The notes under the pieces are model-generated. The model searched no databases. It saw only the letters and a list, made by a program, of their open reading frames with translations, and was not told the DNA's origin. A DNA stretch of 64,000 bases from Acetobacter persici JCM 25330 (GTDB lineage: Bacteria; Pseudomonadota; Alphaproteobacteria; Acetobacterales; Acetobacteraceae). How positions within the stretch are numbered: position 1 is the first letter of the stretch; every line of letters begins with the position of its first letter. Below, piece by piece: positions 22,642 to 41,634 of this stretch. The translations under genes and the position numbers were made by a program. Where the stretch lies: the NCBI RefSeq assembly GCF_000613905.1, contig NZ_BAJW01000004.1, positions 1 to 64,000 on the forward strand, read 5' to 3'.

Positions 22642-23613
22642 TCAGTCGTTGTACCAGCCAAGCTGGCTTAAAGTGCCCAGTTGCGTGGGGGTGAGCCAGC
22701 CTTCGCGCTGCATATCCTCAATCATCCATCCGCAGGAAGAACGGGTGCTCCGGGGCTGTGTGTCAAAGAGCATGGCGTCTGGCGCATCAGGCGTTCCCGG
22801 CATGATACGCTTCAGAGCCTCATAGGGCAGATCCAGCCCCTCGGCATTTAACGGGGCGCTAAGGAGTTTGGTAATTTCTGCTGCGTGCGCAGGCTGGTTA
22901 CAGAGCGCGGCAGCGTCCCGGACTGCGGCATACAGGCGGGCCGCGCCATCCGGATTTTCGCTGGCCCACTGGTCCCGTAAGGTCAGTATTTTTTCAAGAT
23001 GCCCCGGCATAACCTGTGCCGACCCGGCGACGACAAAGGCCAGATTTTTCAGGCAAGCATCCGCCCCCCACGGCGGGCCTGCACAAAACCCGTCAATCTC
23101 ACCGGTTGCGAGTGCCTGAATCATGCTGCTGGGTGGCATAATGACAATTTCTGTCTCCGTATCCCGGCAAATGGCATGGTCCTGAAGGAACCGTGTCAGG
23201 ATCAGATAATGTGTTGAATAGAGATGCACCACACCCAGACGGGGCTTGCGGCCGAGCGACTGCGCCCAGTTTGTAAAAGCCGTGTGCTTGTCACGCCCGG
23301 ACTGCCACTGTGCCTGCGCTTCGGCCTGTCCACGCAGAACAATCATATTCCCACCCCGGCTGACAGGCAGGCCCGGGCGCAGCGCAACCGGGCGTCCACG
23401 CTGGCCAAGCGCTGTCATGATCGCCAGAGGCGGAAACATCACTGCGCCATCAAGACCATTCCAGACAAGCCCATCTGCAATATTGGCCCAGGACGGCACA
23501 ATAACAGGTTCAACATCCAGTCCATGCCTGTCAAAAAAACCCATGCTGCGGGCTACCAGAACCGGGGCGCTGTCTGCCAGTCGCAGGAGTCCGATACGGC
23601 AGGAGATACTCAT
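22642..23613 (-). CDS. nasS: Nitrate/nitrite sensor NasS
   Basis: A 323-residue protein of the NrtA/CmpA substrate-binding family. It has no signal peptide (begins MSISCRIGLLRLADSAP), which marks it as the cytoplasmic sensor NasS and not a transporter component. Landmarks are LGVVHLYSTHYLILTRFL, GEIDGFCAGPPWGADA and the DQWASENPDGAARL segment. In characterised alphaproteobacteria NasS binds NasT and releases it when nitrate or nitrite is present. The ATG overlaps the nasT stop by 4 bp, and it is the last gene of the nitrate operon. Confidence 0.88.
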   Translation of the reverse strand: MSISCRIGLLRLADSAPVLVARSMGFFDRHGLDVEPVIVPSWANIADGLVWNGLDGAVMFPPLAIMTALGQRGRPVALRPGLPVSRGGNMIVLRGQAEAQAQWQSGRDKHTAFTNWAQSLGRKPRLGVVHLYSTHYLILTRFLQDHAICRDTETEIVIMPPSSMIQALATGEIDGFCAGPPWGADACLKNLAFVVAGSAQVMPGHLEKILTLRDQWASENPDGAARLYAAVRDAAALCNQPAHAAEITKLLSAPLNAEGLDLPYEALKRIMPGTPDAPDAMLFDTQPRSTRSSCGWMIEDMQREGWLTPTQLGTLSQLGWYND

Positions 23614-24191
23614 GGTGAAGGAGTCCTGTTCTGGTGAGCAAGATAATCTCTGGCAACATCAATAATTTTTCGCGCCTGCTGCATGGCCTGTTTGCGGAAC
23701 CACCGATAGGCGTCTTCCTCCTTGCAGCGTTCCTGCTTCATAAACAGGATCTTGGCGCGGTCTATTGTCTCACGCTCGGAAAGTGTTTTTCTGGCCGCAA
23801 GCAGTTCCGCATTTGTCTCCCTAAAACGGCGGTACAAGGCAATGGCGGACCGTAAAAGCGGTTTGACATCTTTGACCGGAGTATCCAGCACGTTGTAGGA
23901 GCAGACACCTGCGGCAAAGGCATCTTCCATCAGGCTTTCATCATCTTCATCAACAAACAGCGCAACCGGGCGTTCCTGCCCGGAGGCGGAAAGAGCCCGC
24001 ACACTATCCAGCGCATCACGGTCTGCCCGGCTGATATCCACCAGCACAATATCGGGCATATGGTGGCGCACGGCATCAATCAGGCTTGTGGCGTCGTCCA
24101 GCAGAATAACATCCAGTGTTGCTTCCGCTTCCAGCAGGCGCGCCAGCGCCCCGGCGCGGTGTGAGTTTTCATCTGCCAGAAGAACTTTCAT
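23610..24191 (-). CDS. nasT: ANTAR-domain antiterminator NasT
   Basis: A 193-residue regulator: a receiver-like domain (residues 1 to about 120, MKVLLADENSHRAGAL, DIVLVDISRAD) followed by an RNA-binding ANTAR domain (about 125-185, TLSERETIDRAKILFMKQ, then DAYRWFRKQAMQQARKI). The ANTAR signature of aromatic and alanine residues in the second helix is kept. NasT relieves termination in nas leader RNAs by binding hexaloop hairpins; a fitting hairpin lies in this operon's leader at 34050-34077. It follows the nitrate reductase gene by 18 bp and overlaps nasS. Confidence 0.92.
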   Translation of the reverse strand: MKVLLADENSHRAGALARLLEAEATLDVILLDDATSLIDAVRHHMPDIVLVDISRADRDALDSVRALSASGQERPVALFVDEDDESLMEDAFAAGVCSYNVLDTPVKDVKPLLRSAIALYRRFRETNAELLAARKTLSERETIDRAKILFMKQERCKEEDAYRWFRKQAMQQARKIIDVARDYLAHQNRTPSP

Positions 24192-24209: not shown

Positions 24210-27200
24210 TTAGTACACATCCCGCAGATAGCGGCCATTGCGGGCAAAGTCTGACAAATAGGCGTCTGCGTTTTCAGCACTCATGTCTCCGTGTCGTGCG
24301 ATAATCCTTTTCAGGGCGCTGTCAACATCGCGTGCCATCCGCGCGGCATCTCCACAGATATACAGGCACGCTCCCCGGTTAAGCCAGTCCCATAGCAGCG
24401 CGCCATGCTCTTCCATGCGGTCCTGCACGTAAATACGCTCTGGCTGGTCACGGGAGAACGCCGTATCCAGCCGCGTCAGACAGCCCTGCGCCATGAAGGC
24501 TTCCAGTTCCTCACGGTAGTAAAAGCCGGTGCTTTCATGCCGCTCTCCAAAAAACAGCCAGTTCTCGCCTTTGGCCTGCCGGGCGGTGCGTTCCTGCAAA
24601 AAAGCCCGGAAGGGGGCAATGCCGGTGCCGGGCCCAACCATGATAACGGGAGTGCTGCCATCCGCAGGAACATGGAAATGCGCCGTGGGCTGTACAAAAA
24701 CCGGCACCTCTTCCCCTTCCGTGAGCCCGGTCAGCCATGTGGAGGAAACACCGGGGTACGGGGTGCGATTCACACCTACTGTCAGATGAATATGATCCGG
24801 GTTTGTCAGCGGGGATGAGGAAATGGAGTAAAGGCGCGGCTGCATCTGCCGGAACAGGGCAGGCACTGTCTGCGGGTCGGTCATGCCGGAAAGCGTGGTG
24901 ATCAGATCCGGCAGATACCCCCCTTCCGGGCGGCCAAGACGTTCCAGAAGAGCAGGGCTGGGGCGGGAGAGATCAAACCAGCGCCGCAGAGCATCCCCAA
25001 GCGGTGTCGACCCCTGACGCCGCAGGGTCAGCATGGTTTGCTCAGGTAGCTGAAGCGCATTCAGCACCTGCTGGACAGTAGCCTCACTATTACAGGGCCA
25101 GACCCCCAGCGCATCGCCTGTTTTATAGGTCAGGTTTGTCCCGGAAATATCCAGAGCAATATGGAAGGTTTCCTTTTCCGTGTCCTCTCCGGTCAGGCAG
25201 GTTGCACGGCTCAGGCGGGCCAGTGCCGGAGTGGTGCGGGTAATGCGCATGGGCAGAGCCGGGGCAGGCTGTGCGGGAGCAGACCGTGCAGGAGCAGGTG
25301 GGGGCGAGGCTGACGCTGACGGCCCGAGTGCTGCAAGCAGATGGCCCTTCCACGCCTCCACGGCATCTTCATAATCCGGTTCACAATCAACGCGGGTGAG
25401 GAGCGGGGAGGCTCCAAGGCTTGCCAGTTTTTCATCCAGAGCACGGCCAAATCCGCAGAAGCTGGCATAGGAGGAATCTCCAAGCGCCAGCACGGCGTAG
25501 CGCAAATCTGCCAGAGGTGGTTTATGCTGCCGCAGCGCATCCCAGAACGGCGCGGCCGTGTCCGGGGCATCCCCGTCCCCAAACGTGGAGACCAGAAAAA
25601 GACCTGTACCTGAGAGCGCGGACGGATCACACTCCGTCAGTTCTGCCAAGCGCACAGATAGGCCGTTGTCCTGCAGCCATGCGGCAATCTCTGCGGCCAG
25701 AGCTTCTGTTCGCCCGGTCTGGGAGGCCCACCAGACGGTCAGAGCGGGCGCGCTGGCTGATGGTGATGCCAATGCTGACGTCGTGGCCGGATGTGGGGCC
25801 TCCACAGCCATTGTGCGGGAATAAAGTCCGGCCAGCAGACCATTCAGATGGGTAGCCTGCTGCGCGGAAAGCGGCGCTGTTGCCGGGACAACCGGCAAAG
25901 TGCCCTCTGGCGGATTGAGGCGGAGACCCTCCAGAAACCCGCTGATCCAGACACGGCTTTCTTCTGAAAATGTGATCGTGTTCTGCTCAGTAAGGCCGAG
26001 ATGGCGGGCGAGGCGGTCTGGAGGCATGGTCCTCTCCTGTGCAGAAGGCTTTGCGGTCTGAACGCGGGTGAGGGAGACGGCGCAATGTTTGATGCCGGGT
26101 TGCAGGGAAACCGGGTCAATCGCGTCGGACGTCACAGCATTGATGCAGAGTTCTTTGCCAAACCGGTCATTCCAGTGGAAGGGCGCGAAACAGGTCCCGG
26201 GAGAAACACGGCTGGAAACAAGAGCGGGGAGTGTCGCTGTACCCCGGCGCGACCGGATTTCTACGGCGTCCTGCTCACTTAGTCCGAGTTTTTCTGCGTC
26301 TTCAGGCGCAATTTCTAAAAACGGAGCAGTATCCAGCTTGTTAAGCTGTGCCACCCGGCCTGTTTTGGTCAGGGTATGCCACTGATGTTGCAGGCGGCCT
26401 GTGTTGAGCAGGAACGGAAAGGCGTCATCCGGCTCTTCCTCCCGCGGCATCCATGGGCGTGCAAAAACACAGCTTTGCCCGATGGGGTCGCAAAGACGGG
26501 ATAGGCGTCCGGGTCCGGCCGATAGCGGATGGGGTGGCGCGTCGCCTCATCTCCTGCCGCAGCAGGCCATTGCACAGGCCCGCTCAGGAGGCGTGCATGG
26601 CTTACACCGGAAATATCATATCCTGTCACAGGATTTGCAAATCGGCTTGCTTCCGCAAAAACTTCCGCCGCAGAGGCAAAGGAGAACCCGTCTTCAAACC
26701 CCATGGCGCAGGCCACGCGGGCAATAATCTGCCAGTCTGGCAGGGCCTCGCCGGGTGGGGGGACGGCCTGCCGGGCCAGCGTCATGGTCCTGTCGGAATT
26801 CACCTGTACTCCGTCACCCTCTGCCAGAGTGCGCCGGGCAGAAGGATATCGGCATACTGGCCTGTTTCCGTATCTGCGTAAGCATCCTGCACAATAATCA
26901 GTTCTGCTTTTTCAAGAGCAGAGAGAACAGTGCCGCGCCGGGGGACGGTTGCCACCGGGTTAGTGCAGATAATCCAGCAGGCTTTAATTTCCCCGGCGGC
27001 CATGGCGCCAAACATGGCAATCGCTCCCTGACTGCCCTCAGCCGGATGGTGCCGGGCGGTAAACCCCACTGGGTTTCACAAAAAGCTCTGTCTTTTCAGA
27101 AAGGGCAGTGCGCTGGCCCGGCAGGCCGGGGCCCATATAGCCCATTTCCCGCCCTCCCATGGCGTTTGGCTGGCCAGTGAGGGAGAAAGGGCCAGAACCC

Positions 27201-28168
27201 GGCCTGCACAGGCTGCCCGTTGCCAGATGCAGGTTGCACAAGGCATTGGTGTGCCATGCGCCGGAAACGCTCTGGTTCAGTCCCATGGTCCAGAGGGACA
27301 TCCACGCTCCGGCTTCGGCAATCCAGAGTGCTGCGGTGCGGATATCTGTTTCCGCAAGGCCGGTTATGTCCGCAACACGGTGTGGTGTGTACTCTGCCAG
27401 AAAAGCGGGCAGGGCGTCCCAGCCTGTGGTGCAGGCGTTGATGAAGGTCCTATCAAGCGCATCGGCTTCCATAAGCAGAAACAGCAGACCGTTGAGTAAA
27501 GCGAGATCTGTGCCCGGCCTTATTTGTAAAAACAGGTCTGCTTTCTCGGCTGTGGCGGTGCGCCGGGGGTCCACAACAATCAGCTTTGCCCCGGCACGTT
27601 TGCGGTCCATCAGGCGCAGAAACAGGATGGGGTGACAATCCGCCATATTCGCCCCGATGACGAAGAACAGATCGCTACAGTCAAAATCTTCGTACGAGCC
27701 GGGAGGAGCGTCTGCTCCCAGAGATAATTTATAGCCAGTGCCTGCGGCCGCCATGCACAGCCGGGAATTGGATTCAATATGTGGCGTGCGCAGATACCCT
27801 TTGACCAGTTTGTTAGCGAGGTACTGGGCCTCCATGGACATCTGCCCGGAAACATAGAGTGCAATGGCATCGGGGCCATCTGTGTCCAGAATAGTCCGTA
27901 GGCGTCTGGCAGTTTCCTGAATGGCAATATCCATTGGCGCAGGGTCTGGCGTGCTGGCGCGGTCTTTCCGCAGCAGCGCGGTCTCTAAGCGCGCGGGGGA
28001 GGTTATGGGTTTGTCGCAGGAACTCCCCTTTGTGCACAGCCGCCCTTTATTGGCTGGGTGCTCAATATCGCCGCGCACCCGGACAATTTTCTGGTCTTCC
28101 ACCTCCATCACAATGCCACATCCCACACCGCAGTAGGGGCAGACAGAACGGATGTCCTGACACGTCAT
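24210..28168 (-). CDS. Assimilatory nitrate reductase fused to a CysJ-like flavoprotein (four frameshifts)
   Basis: A 1,320-residue fusion once four shifts are repaired. Residues 1-55 bind a [4Fe-4S] cluster (VCPYCGVGCGI ... GRLCTKG); then the molybdopterin oxidoreductase body (SNSRLCMAAAGTGYK, VVDPRRTATAEKADL, YADILLPGALW) and dinucleotide-binding domain. After about residue 770 come a flavodoxin domain (VWWASQTGRTEALA, STFGDGDAPDTA) and a FAD/NAD(P)H reductase domain (RLYSISSSP, GPGTGIAPFRAF, ending GRYLRDVY) as in sulfite reductase CysJ. It should reduce nitrate directly with NAD(P)H. Breaks near 27082, 27024, 26824 and 26465 are each cured by one added base, two of them in T5 runs. ATG at 28168 is 5 bp after nirBD. 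Confidence 0.9.
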
Positions 28169-28173
28169 AAGCT

Positions 28174-31070
28174 TTACGCCATGAGGGTTTCCAGAGGGCG
28201 GGTTGTTGTGCGGGCACGGATTTCCACGCGTCCCTGATGCAGCCGCGCCTCCCATGCCTGAACAGAGCGGGAGGCATCTTCCAGACAGGTCCCGGTCTCA
28301 AGATTGAAATGTTGCTTGTAGAGCGGAGAGGCCACAACAGGCTGCCCCTTCAGGTCTCCTATCATTCCGCGCCCCAGCACATTGGCGTGTGAGAACGGGT
28401 CATGGTTATCAATGGCAAAAACCTGACCCTCTCCGGCTGCATCCGGAAGGTAAAACAGAGCGATCTGCGTGGTTCCAAGCAGGGCCACAACACCCGACCG
28501 CGCAACAAGATCCCGCTGCGCGCACAAATCCGTCCAGTCTGCCGGGCCTGCTGCAACAGCCTGCTCAGGCTGGTTCTCTGCAGGTTTAACCTGATCCCGT
28601 TCCGGAACGGTGCGGATATTCGGGTCCGGGCGGCTGTCATTTACAAATGTGCGGAAGCGCTTCAGCTTTTCTTCATCCGTCAGCGCGTCTTTCCATTCGC
28701 AGTGGTAGGTTTCCACCACATGCTGCATCTGCTGTTCCAGCTCAGCACAGATGCCAAGACTATCATTGATGATAACATCTTTCAGATAGTCCAGCCCACC
28801 CTCCAGCGTTTCACGCCAGACAGAGGTTCTCTGAAGTTTATCCGCAGTGCGGATATAAAACATCAGGAAGCGGTCAATATATTTGACTAGAGTTTCAGAA
28901 TCGAGGTCTGTGGCAAAAAGCTCCGCATGGCGGGGGCGCATACCGCCATTCCCGCAGACATACAGGTTCCAGCCATTTTCAGTAGCAATAACGCCCACAT
29001 CCTTGCTCTGGGCCTCTGCACATTCCCGCGTGCACCCGGAGACAGCAAATTTGAGCTTATGGGGCGACCGCAGGCCCTTATAGCGGTTTTCCAGATCAAG
29101 CGCCTTGCCAACACTATCCTGCACCCCGTAGCGGCACCATGTGCTGCCTACGCAGGATTTTACAGTGCGGGTGGATTTTCCATACGCATGACCGGTCTCA
29201 AACCCGGCATCCAGCAATTCACGCCAGATCTCAGGTAACTGGTGGAGTTGCGCGCCAAACAGATCCACGCGCTGCCCGCCGGTAATTTTGGTATAGAGGT
29301 TATATTTCTTGGCAACCTGCCCGAGCACAATCAGCTTGTCTGGGGTAATTTCCCCACCGGCAATACGCGGCACAACGGAATAGGTCCCGTTTTTCTGCAT
29401 ATTGCCCATAAAAGTGTCGTTTGTATCTTGCAGAGGGATATAGAGCGGGTCCGTAATGGGTTTGTTCCATGCGGAGGCAAGGATCGAGCCGATCGCAGGT
29501 TTACAGATTTCGCAGCCCAGCCCGCCATTGCCATACTGCTCCATCAGTCTTCAAAACTCCGGAGATTATGGACACGGACAAGAGAATACAGTTTCTGCCG
29601 GGTGTAGGAGAAATGTTCGCACAGGCTTTTATCAACCGTCATGCCACGGGCTGTCAGCTCTGCTTCAAAAACACTTTTCAGCAGGCCGCTGCACCCGCCG
29701 CAGCCGGTGCTGGCTTTGGTGTCGGCTTTTAGAGTTGCCAGGTCCGTGCAGCCCTGTTCAATAGCCGTGCTGATCGCGCCTTTGGTCACATTGTGGCAGG
29801 AACAGATGGTTGCTGTATCAGGCAGGGCATCCGCGCCCAGAAGTTCAGCTCCCTCACCGCGCGGCAGGATCAGAACGGCCGGGTCTGCCGGGGGGGCAAT
29901 ACCATTCTGCACATACTGAAAAATTGTGTCGTAGTAGGAGTTATCCCCAACAAGCACAGCACCGGTTACGCGCGTGCCATCGGCGGAGAGCACAAGCCTG
30001 CGGTAAGACCCTTCCGCCTCCCCGATAAAACGATAGCTGGTGGAGCCGGGTTCCTGCCCGTGAGCATCCCCGATGGAGCCGACATCGACCCCCTGAAGTT
30101 TAAGCTTTGTGGACATATCCGCGCCGGTAAAAGCGGCATCCGCCTCTCCGGCAAGGAGGGCGGCCACCGTGCGGGCCATGGTATAGCCGGGGGCGACAAG
30201 ACCAAAAATCTGCCCTTCCCACAACGCACATTCCCCAATGGCAAAAATATCCGGGTCTGATGTGCGGCACTGATTATCCACAACAATGCCGCCACGCGGC
30301 CCGATCTCCAGCCCGCAGGCCCGGCCCGGCATGTCCTGAGGCTGAATCCCTGCGGAAAAGACAACCATGTCTGTTTCCAGCGTGGTGACATCAGCAAAAA
30401 CCAGTTTGTGCCGGTGCGCCGTGCCCGCAACAATTTCTTTTGTAACGTGCAGAACACGCACATCAATGCCGAGGGCTTCAATCCGATGTTTGAGGGCGCG
30501 GCCCCCCTCTTCATCAAGCTGGGCTGGCATCAGGTGGCTGCCAAGCTGAATAACGCTGACATCCAGCCCCAGAACTTTCAGGGCGTTGGCGGCTTCCAGC
30601 CCCAGAAGCCCACCCCCGATCACGGTACCATGCCGGGCACCTTCTGCCGCCGCGCGGATCAGGTCCAGATCCTCCAGCGTCCGGTATACCAGACCGGCGG
30701 TGCCGGTATTGCCCGGTACAGGCGGCACAAATGGGCGGGAGCCGGTTGCAAGAATCAGTGTGTTGTAAGGCAGGCATCCATCTTCTGCGGTAATGGTTTT
30801 CTGCGCCCGATCAATGTCCGTCACCCGGCTGTTCAGGTGGAGTGTGATGCCGTGGCTTGTATGGAAGTCGTCCTGATGCAGCCGCAGGGCCAGCGCATCC
30901 TGTCCGCTCATATAATCTGTCAGATGCACACGGTCATACGCATGGTGGCGTTCTTCGCCAAAAACATGGATCTGATGCGTTTCATGCAGACCATGCATAA
31001 TGAGCTGCTCTGCGCAGTAATGGCCAACCATGCCGTTGCCGACAATGATGATGTTGTCTTTGATGGTCAT
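28174..31070 (-). CDS. nirB: Assimilatory nitrite reductase, NirB-NirD fusion (frameshifted)
   Basis: Siroheme nitrite reductase, 965 residues after one repair. The first half holds the FAD/NADH domain (IIIVGNGMVGHYCAEQL, LILATGSRPFVPP, VIGGGLLGLEAANAL) and the BFD-type [2Fe-2S] site (ICSCHNVTKGAI, TGCGGCSGLL). The second half is the siroheme/[4Fe-4S] core (GGQRVDLFGA, CVGSTWCRYG, FAVSGCTRECAEAQ). From about residue 845 a NirD-type Rieske-like domain follows (WTDLCAQRDL, AIDNHDPFSHANVLGRG, LYKQHFNLETG), so NirB and NirD are one chain. The frame breaks near 29545 at GACTGATGG; GACCTGATGG restores SFEDLMEQYG. It reduces nitrite to ammonium in the cytoplasm. Confidence 0.92.
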
Positions 31071-31086
31071 GGGTTTGCCTCTGCTT

Positions 31087-32753
31087 TTAAAATTTGAATT
31101 CGAGCGTTTGCATGTAGAGCGCGCCCTCTTTGGCGCCGACAGTCCGCATCCCGCGTGAGAGCAGAATGCCTTCAATATCGTGCGTCCAGGCCCAGTGCGG
31201 CGCAAAGTTCCAGGAAAGCTGGGTGTAGGGCATGACGCCGGTAAACCCGCCATGCAGGTTGTCACGCCAGTTATAAATTTTACTGTTGCCGCCATAAACG
31301 GCGTCCTGCGTGCTGGCCCGCCAGAAGAACGGCACGTGCAGCTTCAGGTGCAGGGTCGGATGCATGGTAAAATTGGCAATCGGCCCGACACCAATCAGGT
31401 TTTGTGACGTCAGGGAAAGAGAGAGATCGTTATAATAAGGTAGCGGGACGAAAGGCGTTGCAAACGTGCCGACTGCGCCGCCCTGACTACGGTCAGACCC
31501 ACCGGAGAACAGGTCAGCCTGCACGCCAAAGCCCGGCTTGCCCGCCCAGTCCGCGCGCGTGTACGTTATGCTGCCATTCACCGCATAAGCGCGCACGGAG
31601 CGTGTGCTCTGGCTTGTTTTGGCCGGACGAAACTCCCCACCCTGAAAAATACCTGTCAGATTTGTAGAAAACGGACCGACATTCCCCCACAGGCGCAGCC
31701 CGACATTATCCCGGCGGGAAGAGCCTTTCTGCACACTCCCCTGTGCTGCGGCAGGGATGGAAGCCGGAGCGCCGCCATACAGGTATCCAAGGAAAAACAG
31801 ATCCGCAAACATCTGGCTTTTCTGGCCCATGAACTGAAAAGCGGGGAGTGCTGTGGACGTATAGGCACCATACAGGCGCGCATTATAATTTGTGCCGTCT
31901 GCAAAAACTTTTTGCGGCAGCTTGTTTGTTTGCATGAAGTCGAACAGATCGATCCTGAAGCGGTTCCACACGGCATATCCGCGGAAGCGTCCCATGTCTG
32001 CTGCACGTTTGTCAGGTCACGCGGGGACTGTAGGGAAACGGGTGCATCCAGAAAAATCTGTCGGCCGCCGATAACACCCATCTGCGCCCCAAGAAAGCGG
32101 CCTTTAACTTCCAGAATCCCTTGCTGGAGGTCCAGACTTTCGCGCTGGGCACCCGTCTGGTAGCCGTATGTGTTGGAGCCGCCTGCCACGCCATACAGGA
32201 ATTCCGCATAAGCCCGCACATGCTCTCCTAGATGCAGGTCTGCGCCATACTGGTTGCGGAGCAGAACACGGCTGGCATTTGTTTTGCCTGCCTGACCGAG
32301 CAGGGGCTGATTTTCAAAAATATACCGTAGCCGTTCTTCCCCGCTGAAGCTCATCCAGATACTGCCGCTATCATTGAGGCGGACGTATTTCAGGCGGTTG
32401 AACCAGTCGTTTTTCCGAATACTCTGAGGGGTACGGGCCAAAGGACTCCAGTCTTCCGTCCAGCGGGCCTGACCGTAGCCATTTACAACCCCAAACCCGG
32501 AAGCGGCACCGTTCCCGGCGTTAAAGATCTTCCAGTCGGTGTGATAGACCGCCCCTTTTAAAATGGCCTTCTTGTCTGGCAGAGGAAGCACCGGAACTGC
32601 GACAACGGGCGTCAGAGGCGTCACTGCGGCAGGAAGAGGCGTTTTCTGGGGTGCGGATTTCTGCTCTGCCGCCCATGCGGTGCCGCTTAGCGCGACACTC
32701 AGAACAAGGCTTCCACTCTTCCAGCTCTGGAAGCAGCGTAAAATACGTTTCAT
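31087..32753 (-). CDS. Alginate-export-family outer-membrane porin in the nitrate operon (frameshifted)
   Basis: A 555-residue beta-barrel after repair. The signal peptide is KSGSLVLSVALSGTAWA; the mature start is proline-rich. The body resembles the alginate_exp (AlgE-like) family: GEERLRYIFENQP, LLRNQYGADLHLGEHVRAYAE-like LHLGEHVRAYAEF, QQGILEVKG, and the C-terminal barrel strand ending QTLEFKF. The break is near 31992 (GGG where GGGG gives TWGRFRGYAVWN). It overlaps the narK stop by 4 bp and ends 16 bp before nirBD, so it is clearly co-transcribed; a role in nitrate/nitrite passage across the outer membrane is inferred from that. Confidence 0.82.
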
Positions 32754-33934
32754 TGCGCACGCTCCGTCCAGCGGGCGTGGCAGCCAGTGACGCACCCGCA
32801 CGCGACGAAACAGACAAGTGCAAAAATGAAAAAGCCGGGGCCGTAGGAACCCGTCGTCTGACGTGCGGCGCCAAGGGAGGAGGCGAGATAGAAGCCGCCC
32901 ACCCCGCCAGCCATGCCAACAAGACCCGTCAGAATACCGACCTGCTGCGGGAACCGGATCGGCACAAGCTGAAAGACCGCCCCGTTCCCCAGCCCCAACG
33001 TCACCATTCCCAGAAAGAAAGCGCCAAACGCCAGAAAGACAGAAGGGAGCCCCGTTGAGATCAGCAGGAAAATAAGCCCTGCTACCCCATAAATCAGCAT
33101 CAGCGCCTTTGTGCCGCCAATACGGTCCGCAAGAGCCCCGCCAACCGGACGGATGAAAGAACCGGCAAAAACCACAAAGGCGGTGCACGCCCCTGCGGTG
33201 GCCGGGGCCAGATGGTACTGATCATTGAAGTAGATAGTCAGAAAGGCCGCCAGACCGACAAACCCGCCGAACGTGACGCTGTAGAAGAACATCAAAGCCC
33301 AGCAGCCGCCCGATTTCAGGATCGGCCCCCATGAAGACAGGGACGGCATGGACGGACGGCTCGCCGGTTCCCGCGCCAGACACAAAAAGGCAATCAGCAC
33401 TGCAATCAGCGGCAGTGTTGCCAGCCCCAGAACATTCAGCCAGCCCACCATGGCAGCCAGACCGGGCGCGAACAGGGATGCCAGAGCCGTGCCGGAATTC
33501 CCGGCCCCCGCAATGCCCAGAGCCGTGCCCTGATAACGGGGCGGATACCAGACGGACGCAAGGGGCAGCGCGACAGCAAAGGAGGCGCCTGCAATACCCA
33601 GAACCAGAGCGACCCAGAACATGCTGAGATAGCTGTGTGGCGCCAGAAGCCATGTCAGCCACAGCCCAAGAATAACACTCACCTGCGCCGCAATGGCGAC
33701 GCGGCGTGGGCCAAACACATCCACCAGTGCTCCGGCAATCACCCGCAGGCCAGCACCAGCCAGGACAGGGGTTGCGACGAGCAGCCCCTTCTGTCCGGCG
33801 TTCAGATGCAGGTCATGCGCAATGGAAATCCCCAGCGGGCCGAGGAGCACCCAGACCATGAACGAAACATCAAAATAGAGAAATGCGGCAAGCAGAGTCG
33901 GTGCGTGACCGGCTTTAAGAAACCCTTTGTCCAC
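32750..33934 (-). CDS. MFS nitrate/nitrite transporter, NarK/NasA type
   Basis: A 394-residue 12-helix major facilitator. The N-terminus FLKAGHAPTLLAAFLYFD with SFMVWVLLGPLG and the two nitrate-signature regions (GIAGASFAVALPLASVWYPP and FLGMVTLGLGNGAVFQLVP) identify the NarK/NNP family. The GTG at 33934 follows GGAAG at suitable spacing; family members begin just before FLKAGHAP, which supports it. It is first in the operon, about 150 nt downstream of a predicted promoter, behind an ANTAR-type leader. It should import nitrate for assimilation. Confidence 0.9.
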   Translation of the reverse strand: MDKGFLKAGHAPTLLAAFLYFDVSFMVWVLLGPLGISIAHDLHLNAGQKGLLVATPVLAGAGLRVIAGALVDVFGPRRVAIAAQVSVILGLWLTWLLAPHSYLSMFWVALVLGIAGASFAVALPLASVWYPPRYQGTALGIAGAGNSGTALASLFAPGLAAMVGWLNVLGLATLPLIAVLIAFLCLAREPASRPSMPSLSSWGPILKSGGCWALMFFYSVTFGGFVGLAAFLTIYFNDQYHLAPATAGACTAFVVFAGSFIRPVGGALADRIGGTKALMLIYGVAGLIFLLISTGLPSVFLAFGAFFLGMVTLGLGNGAVFQLVPIRFPQQVGILTGLVGMAGGVGGFYLASSLGAARQTTGSYGPGFFIFALVCFVACGCVTGCHARWTERAQ

Positions 33935-34028
33935 AGAACGTCTTCCAGATGGTCCGTATTTTCTGCACGGAAAACCATCGCTCTCTGAGCCAGCGAACCG
34001 CCATTGATCCGCCCTGTGTGCCGCGTCT

Positions 34029-34044
34029 GCCTTAACAAGAAGGC
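34029..34044 (-). ncRNA. Second leader hairpin, six-base loop
   Basis: On the minus strand GCCTT and AAGGC pair around CTTGTT. The loop has six bases and G at position 4, but C at position 1 where ANTAR targets have A. It lies 5 bp downstream of the stronger hairpin and could be the second half of the paired ANTAR motif. Confidence 0.4.
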
Positions 34045-34049
34045 GCCTG

Positions 34050-34077
34050 TTCTTTCCGCCGCCGTTGACGGAAAGAA
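34050..34077 (-). promoter_or_regulatory. ANTAR (NasT) target hairpin in nitrate operon leader
   Basis: The minus-strand RNA forms an 11-bp stem (TTCTTTCCGTC with GGCGGAAAGAA, one G-U pair) closed by the hexaloop AACGGC. A at loop position 1 and G at position 4 are the invariant bases described for ANTAR-protein targets. It lies within the first bases of the predicted transcript and 116 nt before the narK start, and the operon itself encodes NasT. I could not find a convincing intrinsic terminator after it. Confidence 0.6.
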
Positions 34078-34082
34078 GAATG

Positions 34083-34132
34083 TCCTGAAACAGTAAGGCC
34101 GGAATAATCCGATGTCAAAATGATTTTCAGGA
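34083..34132. promoter_or_regulatory. Inverted repeat flanking the nitrate operon promoter
   Basis: TCCTGAAA at 34083-34090 and TTTCAGGA at 34125-34132 are perfect inverse copies whose centres are 42 bp apart, about four helical turns, bracketing the promoter. A regulator bound to both could loop the promoter; the regulator is unknown. Confidence 0.4.
34090..34118 (-). promoter_or_regulatory. Sigma-70-type promoter of the nitrate operon
   Basis: On the minus strand TTGACA (34113-34118) and TACTGT (34090-34095) are separated by exactly 17 bp. The predicted transcript would begin near 34083, placing the ANTAR hairpin at its 5' end. Confidence 0.6.
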
Positions 34133-34184: not shown

Positions 34185-34233
34185 TTCCCGCTTCCCGCTT
34201 CCCGCTTCCCGCTTCCCGCTTCCCGCTTCCCGC
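34185..34233. repeat. Heptanucleotide tandem repeat, seven copies of TTCCCGC
   Basis: Seven exact head-to-tail copies of TTCCCGC fill 49 bp, upstream of the nitrate operon promoter and downstream of scfR. Seven is not a multiple of three and the repeat is not within a recognised gene. Copy number is likely to vary by slipped-strand mispairing. Confidence 0.9.
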
Positions 34234-35905: not shown

Positions 35906-37467
35906 ATGCAGTACCATGATGTTCGAGTGCACCCGGAAACTGAACGTCTGCCCCGCTCCGGGCAGCTCGCATGGAAGATAGCACAGGTCGCGGCTGACCC
36001 TGTTCCTGTTGACATTGAAGTTACGGAAATGGTTGTCAACCGGTTGATTGATAACGCTTCCGTGGCTGTTGCCTCCCTTAACCGCCATTCTGTTGTGAGC
36101 GCACGGGCTGAGGCTCTGGCTCATCGGCGCCCCGACGGGGCAACGCTGTTTGGCATGGGGCCGGATATCCGGGTGCATGCCGAATGGGCTGCATGGGCAA
36201 ATGGCACGGCGGTGCGTGAGCTTGACTATCATGACACATTTCTGGCTGCCGAATACTCGCATCCGGGCGATAATCTGCCCGGTATTCTGGCGGTGGCCCA
36301 GCAGTGCCACCGCAGCGGCGCAGATTTTATCCGTGGCGCGGCCACGGGGTATGAAATTCAGATAGATCTGGCGCGCGCCATCTGCCTGCACAAGCACAAG
36401 ATTGATCATGTCGCCCATCTCGGGCCATCCGTTGCCGCAGGCATCGGTACCCTGCTGCGTCTGCCGCCAGCAGTCATTTATCAGGCTATCGGGCAGGCCC
36501 TGCATGTAACGACCGCCACCCGGCAAAGCCGTAAAGGCGAGATTTCCTCATGGAAAGCCTACGCCCCGGCTCATGCTGGCAAAATGGCGGTCGAAGCTGT
36601 GGACCGTGCATGATGGGGGAAACGGCTCCGGCTCCGATTTATGAAGGAGAAGATGGGGTTATCGCGTGGATGCTGGATGGGAAAAACGCGCAGTATCACG
36701 TGCCGCTTCCGGCACAGGGTGAAGCCAAACGCGCCATTCTGTCGTCTTTCACCAAAGAGCATTCCGCGGAATATCAGAGTCAGGCGCTGATCGACCTCGC
36801 CTTTAAAATGGGGCGGAAAATTTCTGACTGGGACGCGGTAGAGGATATCCTCATTGAGACCAGCCACCATACGCATTACGTGATTGGCACAGGCGCGAAT
36901 GACCCGCAAAAGTTTGACCCGCATGCCTCGCGTGAAACACTGGATCATTCGATCATGTATATCGTTGCCGTCGCCTTGCAGGATGGGGCATGGCACCATG
37001 AACGCTCTTACGCCCCCGAGCGGGCGCGGCGTGAGGATACTGTTCGGCTCTGGCGCAAAATTCATACGGTGGAAAAGCCTGAATGGACTGAACGCTACCA
37101 TGATGCCAACCCCGACCGTAAGGCCTTTGGGGGGCGGATTATCATCCGTATGAAAGACGGCTCCGTTCTGGAAGACGAACTGGCTGTTGCCAATGCCCAT
37201 ACGCTCGGCGCAACGCCCTGGCAGCGCACGGATTATATCCGGAAATTCCGCACACTGTCTGAAGGAATTGTTCCTCAGGAAGAAGTCAGGCGGTTTCTGG
37301 ATGTTGTTCAGAAGTTGCCTCAGTTGCAGGCGGGAGAATTGCACATGCTGGAACTTCAGTTACCGGCAGCTTCACTCCAGCAAAGCAAAGCTGAAGGCAT
37401 CTTCAATTTTGGTCAGTCCCGAACCGAGGTAGACGTCCCCAAACCCTCTGCCGTTCTGGCGTCCTAG
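35906..37467 (+). CDS. prpD: 2-methylcitrate dehydratase (frameshifted)
   Basis: MmgE/PrpD-family enzyme that dehydrates 2-methylcitrate in propionate breakdown; 520 residues after repair. Landmarks are [22 protein letters not shown] split as [17 protein letters not shown] and [41 protein letters not shown] and the C-terminal [18 protein letters not shown]. The break near 36612 (GCATGATG) is cured by GCAATGATG, giving [16 protein letters not shown]. The start follows AGGAATTTAAAAC. It opens the prpD-prpC-prpB-acs operon divergent from scfR. Confidence 0.93.
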
Positions 37468-39656: not shown

Positions 39657-41634
39657 ATGTCCACTTTGTCCCTTATCCCCACGCACTCTCACCCGCATTA
39701 CACAGCAAGCATGAGCCCGGCAGAGTTGCAGGCCATGCGCGCGCATGCGCAGCAAAATCCGGAAGGCTTCTGGCTGGAGCAGGCCCGGCGTATCCACTGG
39801 CACCGTAAGCCAACGCAGGGGTTCCGGGGGTCATTTGAGGGAGATGTCTCCATCAAATGGTATGATGATGGTCATCTGAATGCCTCTGTCTGCTGTATTG
39901 ACCGCCATCTTACCGCACGGGGTGATCAGGTCGCCCTGATCAGCCACAGGGAAGGGCGCCCCGGTGCAGAGCAGATAACCTATGCCATGCTGCATGAGCG
40001 CGTCTGCCGTCTTGCCAATGCGCTGACGGATCTGGGGGTGGAAAAAGGGGAACGTGTCGCTATCTCCCTGCCCATGATTTCCGAGGCCGTCGTGGCCATG
40101 CTGGCGTGCGCCCGGATCGGGGCTGTGCATGTTGTGCTGTTTGGCGGATTTTCAGCCGAAGGCATTGCGGAACGCCTGATGGATAGCGGGGCCGTGCTGG
40201 TTATTACTGCCAGTGAGGCCAGACGCGGCAACAAAACCATCCCGTTCAAACAGACGATGGATGATGCTTTACTGAAATGTGGTCAGAACTGCACCGTAAA
40301 ATCTGTGCTGGTTGTCAGAACGTCTGACGCCGCCGTGCCCATGCTCCCCGGTCGTGACTATGATTATCATGATTTTGTAGACGGGTTTGAACCTGATTTC
40401 GTCCCCGTTGTCATGCCTGCGGAAGCACCGTTGTTCATGCTCTACACATCCGGCAGCACAGGAAAGCCGAAGGCTGTTGTGCATGCAACCGGGGGATATA
40501 TGGTGTGGGCCGCCTACACAATGGGCATGGTTTACGCACAAAAACCCGGCGATGTTTTATGGTGCACGGCTGATGTGGCGTGGATCACCGGGCATACCTC
40601 TGTTGTGTACGGGCCGCTGGCGAATGGTGGCACCACCATGATTTCGGATAGTCTGCCAAATGCGCCGCATGCCGGGCGGTGGTTGGATCTGATTGATGAC
40701 TATAAAGTCACCATGTTGTTTACATCCCCCACGGCTGTCAGAGCCATGATGGCCGATGGTGATGCGGTTGTGCAGGCACATAGTCTGGAAACGCTCCGGT
40801 TGCTTGGCGTTGCCGGAGAACCCATCAGTTCTGATGTGTGGATGTGGTACCATGATGTGATTGGTCGTGGAAAATGCCCGGTGGCGGATACATGGTGGCA
40901 GACTGAAACGGCTGGTGTTGTGCTGGGGCCGGTGCCGGGTGCCCAGCCCTTAAAACCCGGCTCAGCCAGCACGCCCCTGCCGGGACTGGATCTGGCTCTG
41001 GCTGATCCGCAAGGGCGTATTCAGGAAAACTCTGCGGAAGGAAGCCTGTGTATTGCGAGATCATGGCCCGGACAGGCCAGAACAATCTGGCGCGACCATG
41101 AACGTTTTTGCAAAACGTATTTTTCTATGGTGCCCGGATTCTATTTTACCGGTGACGGCGCGGCGGGATGATGATGGTTATTACTGGATTACGGGCAGAA
41201 TGGATGATGTGATCAATGTTGCTGGTCACAGGCTTGGCACGGCAGAAGTGGAAGATGTTCTGGCGACGGACCATCGTTTGTTAGAAAGTGCCGCTGTTGG
41301 TGTGCCGCATCCTGTTAAAGGGCAGGCTCTGGTGGTTTTTGCAATCGCCCGTAAAAATGTCACAGCGCAGCCAACAGAGGCAGGGATTAAACGCATGGTG
41401 GCCGACGCTCTGGGCCGCTATGCAATGCCGGAAACTGTTTATCTAGTCCCTGATTTACCACGCACGCGTTCTGGTAAAATAGTACGCCGTCTTCTGCGTA
41501 AAATCGCAAGTGGTGAAATCGAAAACTTTGGTGATTTGTCCACTTTGACAGATCAGGAAATCGTTCAGACAATTTGTAACTTCGTGCAGGAAAAACACGG
41601 GATGGGCTCTCCTCCCTTGATATTACAGGCATGA
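39657..41634 (+). CDS. Acetyl/propionyl-CoA synthetase (frameshifted)
   Basis: An AMP-forming acyl-CoA synthetase, 659 residues after repair. Motifs: the P-loop LYTSGSTGKPK, TADVAWITGH, the DTWWQTE stretch that shapes the short-chain acid pocket, and the C-terminal PRTRSGKIVRR with the lysine commonly acetylated in Acs. The break near 41160 looks like a lost GC dinucleotide in a GC repeat, restoring GDGARRDDDGYYW. Position at the end of the prp operon suggests propionate activation (PrpE role), though sequence alone does not separate acetate from propionate preference. Confidence 0.9.

Follow-up and report, generated by a model that had tools for sequence, protein, structure and literature searches.

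A probable NasT target in the narK leader

The leader of the nitrate-assimilation operon in the window (the whole 64,000-nt stretch of Acetobacter persici DNA analyzed here) is almost certainly a target of the ANTAR protein NasT, and it very probably acts in cis through an output step other than an ordinary U-tract terminator. The leader is a variant of the known NasT/ANTAR leaders, with a long linker that contains a hairpin of its own, no U-tract terminator, and a last hairpin (H4) at the Shine-Dalgarno sequence.

All elements of the leader lie on the minus strand. Sequence reading and comparison of leaders identified a -35-like hexamer TTGACA (34113–34118), separated by 17 nt from a -10-like hexamer TACTGT (34090–34095). 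The first ANTAR hexaloop hairpin, P1 (34050–34077), has an 11-bp stem that includes one G-U pair and a loop AACGGC (34066–34061) with A1 and G4; it sits 116 nt 5′ of narK. Both hexamers and P1 are present as a preliminary description of this DNA had claimed. That description had also paired P1 with an adjoining hairpin with a six-base loop. The adjoining hairpin exists (34029–34044; 5 bp, loop CTTGTT), but its role as an ANTAR element was rejected, because the loop lacks A1 and varies in near relatives: its equivalent there ranges from 4 to 6 bases, and some best folds do not contain the hairpin at all. It is a spacer hairpin. The true ANTAR partner of P1, missed previously, is P2 (33992–34013), which consists of 8 bp and a loop AATGGC (34005–34000), with the same closing pairs as P1 and nearly the same loop. 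The P1–P2 linker is 36 nt long (34049–34014) and encloses the spacer hairpin.

P2 is followed by a small hairpin, H3 (GCTC-AGA-GAGC; 33980–33990), identified by folding and from related leaders, and by H4 (33948–33979), which ends 1 nt before a putative Shine-Dalgarno sequence GGAAG (33942–33946) located 7 nt before the start codon. The narK gene (32750–33934) starts with GTG, and either GTG or ATG is kept in near relatives. The fold of the leader has a stability z-score of -1.79 relative to shuffled sequences, 8 of 200 of which were equally good.

Conservation of the hexaloop pair

The ANTAR dual hexaloop is defined by six-base loops on a pair of hairpins, each with a stem of 3 bp or more, and P1 and P2, with stems of 11 and 8 bp, agree with this definition. 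They form the sole A1/G4 hexaloop pair in the 64-kb window when both strands were scanned for hairpins 18–75 nt apart with a stem of at least 7 bp and a score of at least 15. Neither loop departs from A1 and G4 in any of 16 same-genus leaders, a set that was thinned for redundancy after its rows had been looked at. In an alignment of 33 leaders that were preselected for hexaloops and include the window, compensatory changes occur in 11 of 14 stem pairs, 91.8% of stem cells are paired (73.6% after shuffling and 38–60% after sliding), the covariation score is 0.647 compared to 0.293 for shuffled alignments, and the closing C-G pair of the hexaloops is conserved.

A covariance search, which the preliminary description had proposed as a check, gave a single strong match in the window's own genome, 60.6 bits at the leader, with the runner-up at 17.5 bits; the P1–P2 model was built from the same 33 rows, the window among them. 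The model matched 28 places in 25 of 200 family genomes at an E-value of 0.01. With the family model R1, the window's genome was the only match among 289 genomes drawn from the class. Rfam models gave no match in the window at the gathering score and, in the leader region, two chance-level matches only (E-values of 0.12 and 1.7).

Distribution of the leader

NarK was searched for in 61 genomes, with a match in 28, and in 397 family genomes, with a match in 77 at 1e-60. The leader is present in 85 of 96 family narK upstream regions, as judged partly by eye. A first automatic dual-hexaloop rule was passed by 70 of the 96 regions, and a second, final rule by 66 of 83; among these 66 the loop-to-loop spacing is 42–67 nt. 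The remaining leaders comprise 12 in which both A1/G4 loops were recognized by eye, although the stem is in some cases mismatched close to the loop, and 7 others: five with a seven-base P2 loop, L064 with an altered P1 loop, and L058, which is cut by a contig end. A dual-hexaloop score of at least 24 was reached by 71.9% of the 96 regions, compared to 0.6% of dinucleotide shuffles. The leader is missing from 11 regions (L042, L070, L076–L082, L090 and L103). The named relatives include Acetobacter malorum, A. cerevisiae and A. cibinongensis, whose NarK proteins are 90–91% identical to that of the window.

Matches of the P1–P2 model are also found before other nitrate genes, which were assigned by eye rather than by a family search (L125, L128, L130, L133, L135, L136 and L137). 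The genes that follow are NrtA-like (L125, L133, L135 and L137), nirB-like (L128) or siroheme methyltransferase-like (L136). Two further matches, L138 and L141, are apparently unrelated to nitrate genes.

Since similar long-spaced pairs occur in an Azospirillaceae bin and three Roseiarcus loci (L177, L180, L185 and L188; hexaloops 57–62 nt apart before narK), the long-spaced layout is, at the level of sequence, not confined to the family. No terminator was found after the hexaloop pair in these four loci.

The nitrate operon and its linkage to nasT

The operon contains, in order, narK, an alginate-export-type porin gene, nirB with a fused nirD, nasC fused to a flavoprotein, nasT and nasS. The NarK protein matches its family at 261.7 bits, under the NCBI cut-off of 311.7, and also matches MFS_1. 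NasT (23610–24191, minus strand) has a receiver and an ANTAR domain and is the sole ANTAR match in the genome. NasS (22642–23613, minus strand) is NMT1-like and a putative nitrate/nitrite sensor by comparison with Paracoccus (PMC3795266). Domain matches thereby bear out the earlier assignment of nasT and nasS to the end of the operon, and the suggested autoregulation is supported as to position, as both genes lie near the target and close the same gene run.

The association of the leader with nasT extends to the family. A nasT gene is found within 15 kb of 49 of 70 leader-bearing narK genes, compared to 1 of 11 leaderless ones (81 narK places; Fisher p 0.0002). The one leaderless narK with a linked nasT (G338) is preceded by transposase-like sequence, and several of the 21 leader-bearing narK genes that lack a linked nasT are on small contigs. 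Could the hairpins, then, be without a regulatory role? Short hexaloop hairpins do arise by chance, but the uniqueness of the pair in 64 kb, its excess over shuffles upstream of narK, its covariation, the single strong match in the genome and the linkage to nasT make this explanation scarcely credible.

By a tally of the 49 leader-bearing narK genes with a linked nasT, 24 have nasT downstream, at the end of the operon, and in the other 25 it lies upstream of narK. This position changes which element regulates nasT. In the Acetobacter pasteurianus plasmid NC_013211.1 (L226), the nas gene run has an annotated IS5 transposase gene between the porin gene and nasT. A Paracoccus plasmid was left out of the comparison, as its gene order differs.

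The reading frames of the porin gene, nirB and nasC in the window (24210–32753) are interrupted by frame changes, and a prpD-like (35906–37467) and an acs-like frame (39657–41634) also look broken. In three relatives both nirBD (965 residues) and the nasC fusion (1308–1313 residues) are unbroken. The broken frames look like sequence errors or decay. A homologue of the operon porin, encoded elsewhere in genome G061, has its own P1-P2-H3-H4 leader, read by eye (L130), which suggests that the porin belongs to nitrate uptake.

Terminators and the hairpins before narK

The absence of a clear terminator before narK, stated in the preliminary description, was confirmed: no terminator-like site was found on the minus strand of the window between P1 and narK, and none overlaps P2, as would be the case in the antitermination subtype. 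From P1 to the start codon, a terminator scan of a named set of 40 family loci likewise gave none. Among 40 loci from outside the family, the same scanner detected 6 in which a terminator comes after a hexaloop, and it detected another in L023. Leaders with a terminator, found outside the family, can thereby be told apart from terminator-less ones in the comparison set. Because the same layout recurs in the family but lacks the stop signal that usually ends transcription, the last step of regulation probably differs from the textbook one. The comparison with relatives strengthens the doubt about simple antitermination that had been voiced from the window.

In most of the sampled genera, the place of a terminator is taken by H4, directly next to the Shine-Dalgarno sequence. 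When the strongest hairpin near the start was located in 38 representatives, its end fell 12–16 nt ahead of the start codon in 24 of them, compared to 6 when each was shuffled once. A hairpin that ends at position -15 and reaches -6 kcal/mol or better is present in 71%. This set consists of 41 representatives minus five (L053, L057 and L062, in which P2 is beside the Shine-Dalgarno sequence, L075, whose start is uncertain, and L098), plus L084 and L091. Seven leaders have no visible H4, and P2 itself is located beside the Shine-Dalgarno sequence (L053, L057, L059, L061, L062, L064 and L067).

Compensatory changes support H4 in 5 of 7 pairs in an alignment of 17 related leaders (A4), with 31 cells changed on both sides compared to 9.3 in shuffled alignments. 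A 10-row set (A5) with the window's own group, in which L014 and L037 are out of register, gave no H4 covariation beyond shuffles. For the counterpart of H3 in these 17 leaders of A4, 95.6% of cells are paired, and one of its four pairs has compensatory changes.

Proposed mechanism and alternatives

We propose that the transcript starts just upstream of P1 and P2, from the putative promoter described above. In Paracoccus, nitrate or nitrite frees NasT from NasS, and NasT binds the leader RNA (PMC3795266). By analogy, NasT released from NasS would bind the P1 and P2 hexaloops here and switch the operon on. As nasT and nasS close the operon, this would constitute a self-reinforcing loop. The output that we prefer places the control step at ribosome entry on narK or close to it, since the distance between H4 and the Shine-Dalgarno sequence is fixed while the sequence of H4 turns over. 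We hold this assignment to translation initiation tentatively, at close to but short of an even chance. Extended to the acetic-acid bacteria and their family as a natural ANTAR switch that turns translation on, with a long-linker leader, a last hairpin locked to the Shine-Dalgarno sequence and a regulator encoded at the operon end, the proposal becomes rather unlikely. Some other or mixed route is unlikely.

The output could instead be transcriptional, with Rho or a U-less hairpin (H3 or H4) stopping the polymerase unless NasT is bound. A transcriptional output is favored by Paracoccus, where transcriptional fusions respond to mutation of the leader hairpins (PMC5424462), and all well-studied NasT and NasR leaders act on transcription. 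The lack of a U-tract terminator in the leader is compatible with such attenuation, and terminator prediction may fail in high-GC genomes (PMC8164766). However, termination does not require the near-constant distance between H4 and the start codon, and the terminators of the six outside loci and L023 end 23 to 220 nt before the start. On balance, attenuation is a serious rival, although somewhat less likely than control at ribosome entry. Classical antitermination at an intrinsic terminator hidden in the leader is the canonical mechanism for EutV, NasR and AmiR (PMC3369931, PMC8934654), and weak terminator-like sites do occur in 3 of 85 leaders (L049, L083 and L084). It is nevertheless very unlikely here, given the lack of a terminator in the window and a linker of 36 nt, when lengthening the linker by 20 nt abolished antitermination by EutV (PMC8934654).

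Within the window's lineage, NasT might also act by unmasking the start codon. CACAGGGCG (34018–34010) is predicted to pair with CGUUCUGUG (33940–33932) over the start codon; this pairing overlaps the P2 stem and would be opened by NasT-stabilized P2. It is predicted in several same-genus folds, and only among the leaders closest to the window does accessibility lean the expected way, with an increase due to P2 in 6 of 8 (L002–L007, L032 and L033). Against it, no compensatory changes were seen by eye in the window's group and the family-wide tests of pairing and accessibility do not support it, and we consider it improbable. In those tests, cognate pairing of the linker with the ribosome site exceeded permuted pairing weakly (p 0.048), and two control regions performed better (p 0.003 and 0.005). 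Formation of P2 changed the predicted accessibility of the ribosome site in either direction in 66 leaders (23 up, 21 down; p 0.75), and switching P2 on or off had no significant effect in 41 representatives (p 0.33). A helix masking the ribosome site (S) was therefore rejected as a family-wide mechanism, as the pairing controls did better and accessibility moved both ways.

If control at ribosome entry is correct, ANTAR/NasT systems would not be tied to intrinsic antitermination. The output step is directly testable, because one genome combines just one strong target with just one ANTAR gene.

Comparison with known ANTAR systems

The leader resembles the NasT/NasS leaders of other Alphaproteobacteria, with an ANTAR-domain NasT, a NasS partner and leader hairpins before a nitrate operon. 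In Paracoccus denitrificans, the hairpins HI and HII are located 137 and 91 bp before nasA (PMC5424462), similar to P1 and P2 at 132 and 71 here. Unlike the Paracoccus nasA and Bradyrhizobium nosR systems, nasT and nasS close the operon, and the terminator structure prevented by NasT at Bradyrhizobium nosR (PMC6759348) has no counterpart found in our leader.

Like the dual-hexaloop targets of EutV, NasR and AmiR, the leader has two hairpins with six-base loops, each with A1 and G4. The linkers of eut RNAs, in contrast, are 5–12 nt long and length-sensitive (PMC3369931, PMC8934654), compared to 36 nt with a hairpin here, and the terminator is missing. The published search definition of ANTAR RNAs allows a variable linker (PMC3369931), and terminators mark the antitermination subtype but are not shared by every ANTAR RNA (PMC8164766).

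Actinobacterial ANTAR RNAs that act on translation are similar in having the ANTAR RNA near the ribosome-binding site. However, their ribosome site is inside the ANTAR hairpins and the bound protein represses (PMC8164766), whereas in our leader the site is downstream of H4 and the expected sign would be activation. In the engineered NmPAL riboptoregulator, binding of the PAL photoreceptor similarly lifts a block of the Shine-Dalgarno sequence (PMC11381354), although that system is synthetic and uses another aptamer and signal. No paper on an Acetobacteraceae NasT leader was among the matches listed in a search of the open-access literature.

Promoter types

A promoter scan requiring 9 of 12 matches, together with other rules, did not report the TTGACA/TACTGT promoter of the window. 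A TTTTGAC-type -35 element and the bases following it are common to 40 of 83 leaders, among which the -10 hexamer is not conserved. Just upstream of the promoter, at approximately 34187–34233, the window contains a 7-base sequence (plus-strand GCTTCCC) that is repeated in tandem about seven times.

Among the other 43 leaders, 30 have a sigma-54-type match (GGCA[CTA], 5–6 nt, T[TC]GC), although the match in L050 is doubtful. These motifs and the distribution of rpoN look like a promoter swap between sigma-54-type and TTTTGAC-type leaders. The rpoN gene is missing in 13 of 80 genomes, including the window's own (91% complete). Twelve of these 13 genomes have narK, which is preceded by a leader of the TTTTGAC type in 10.
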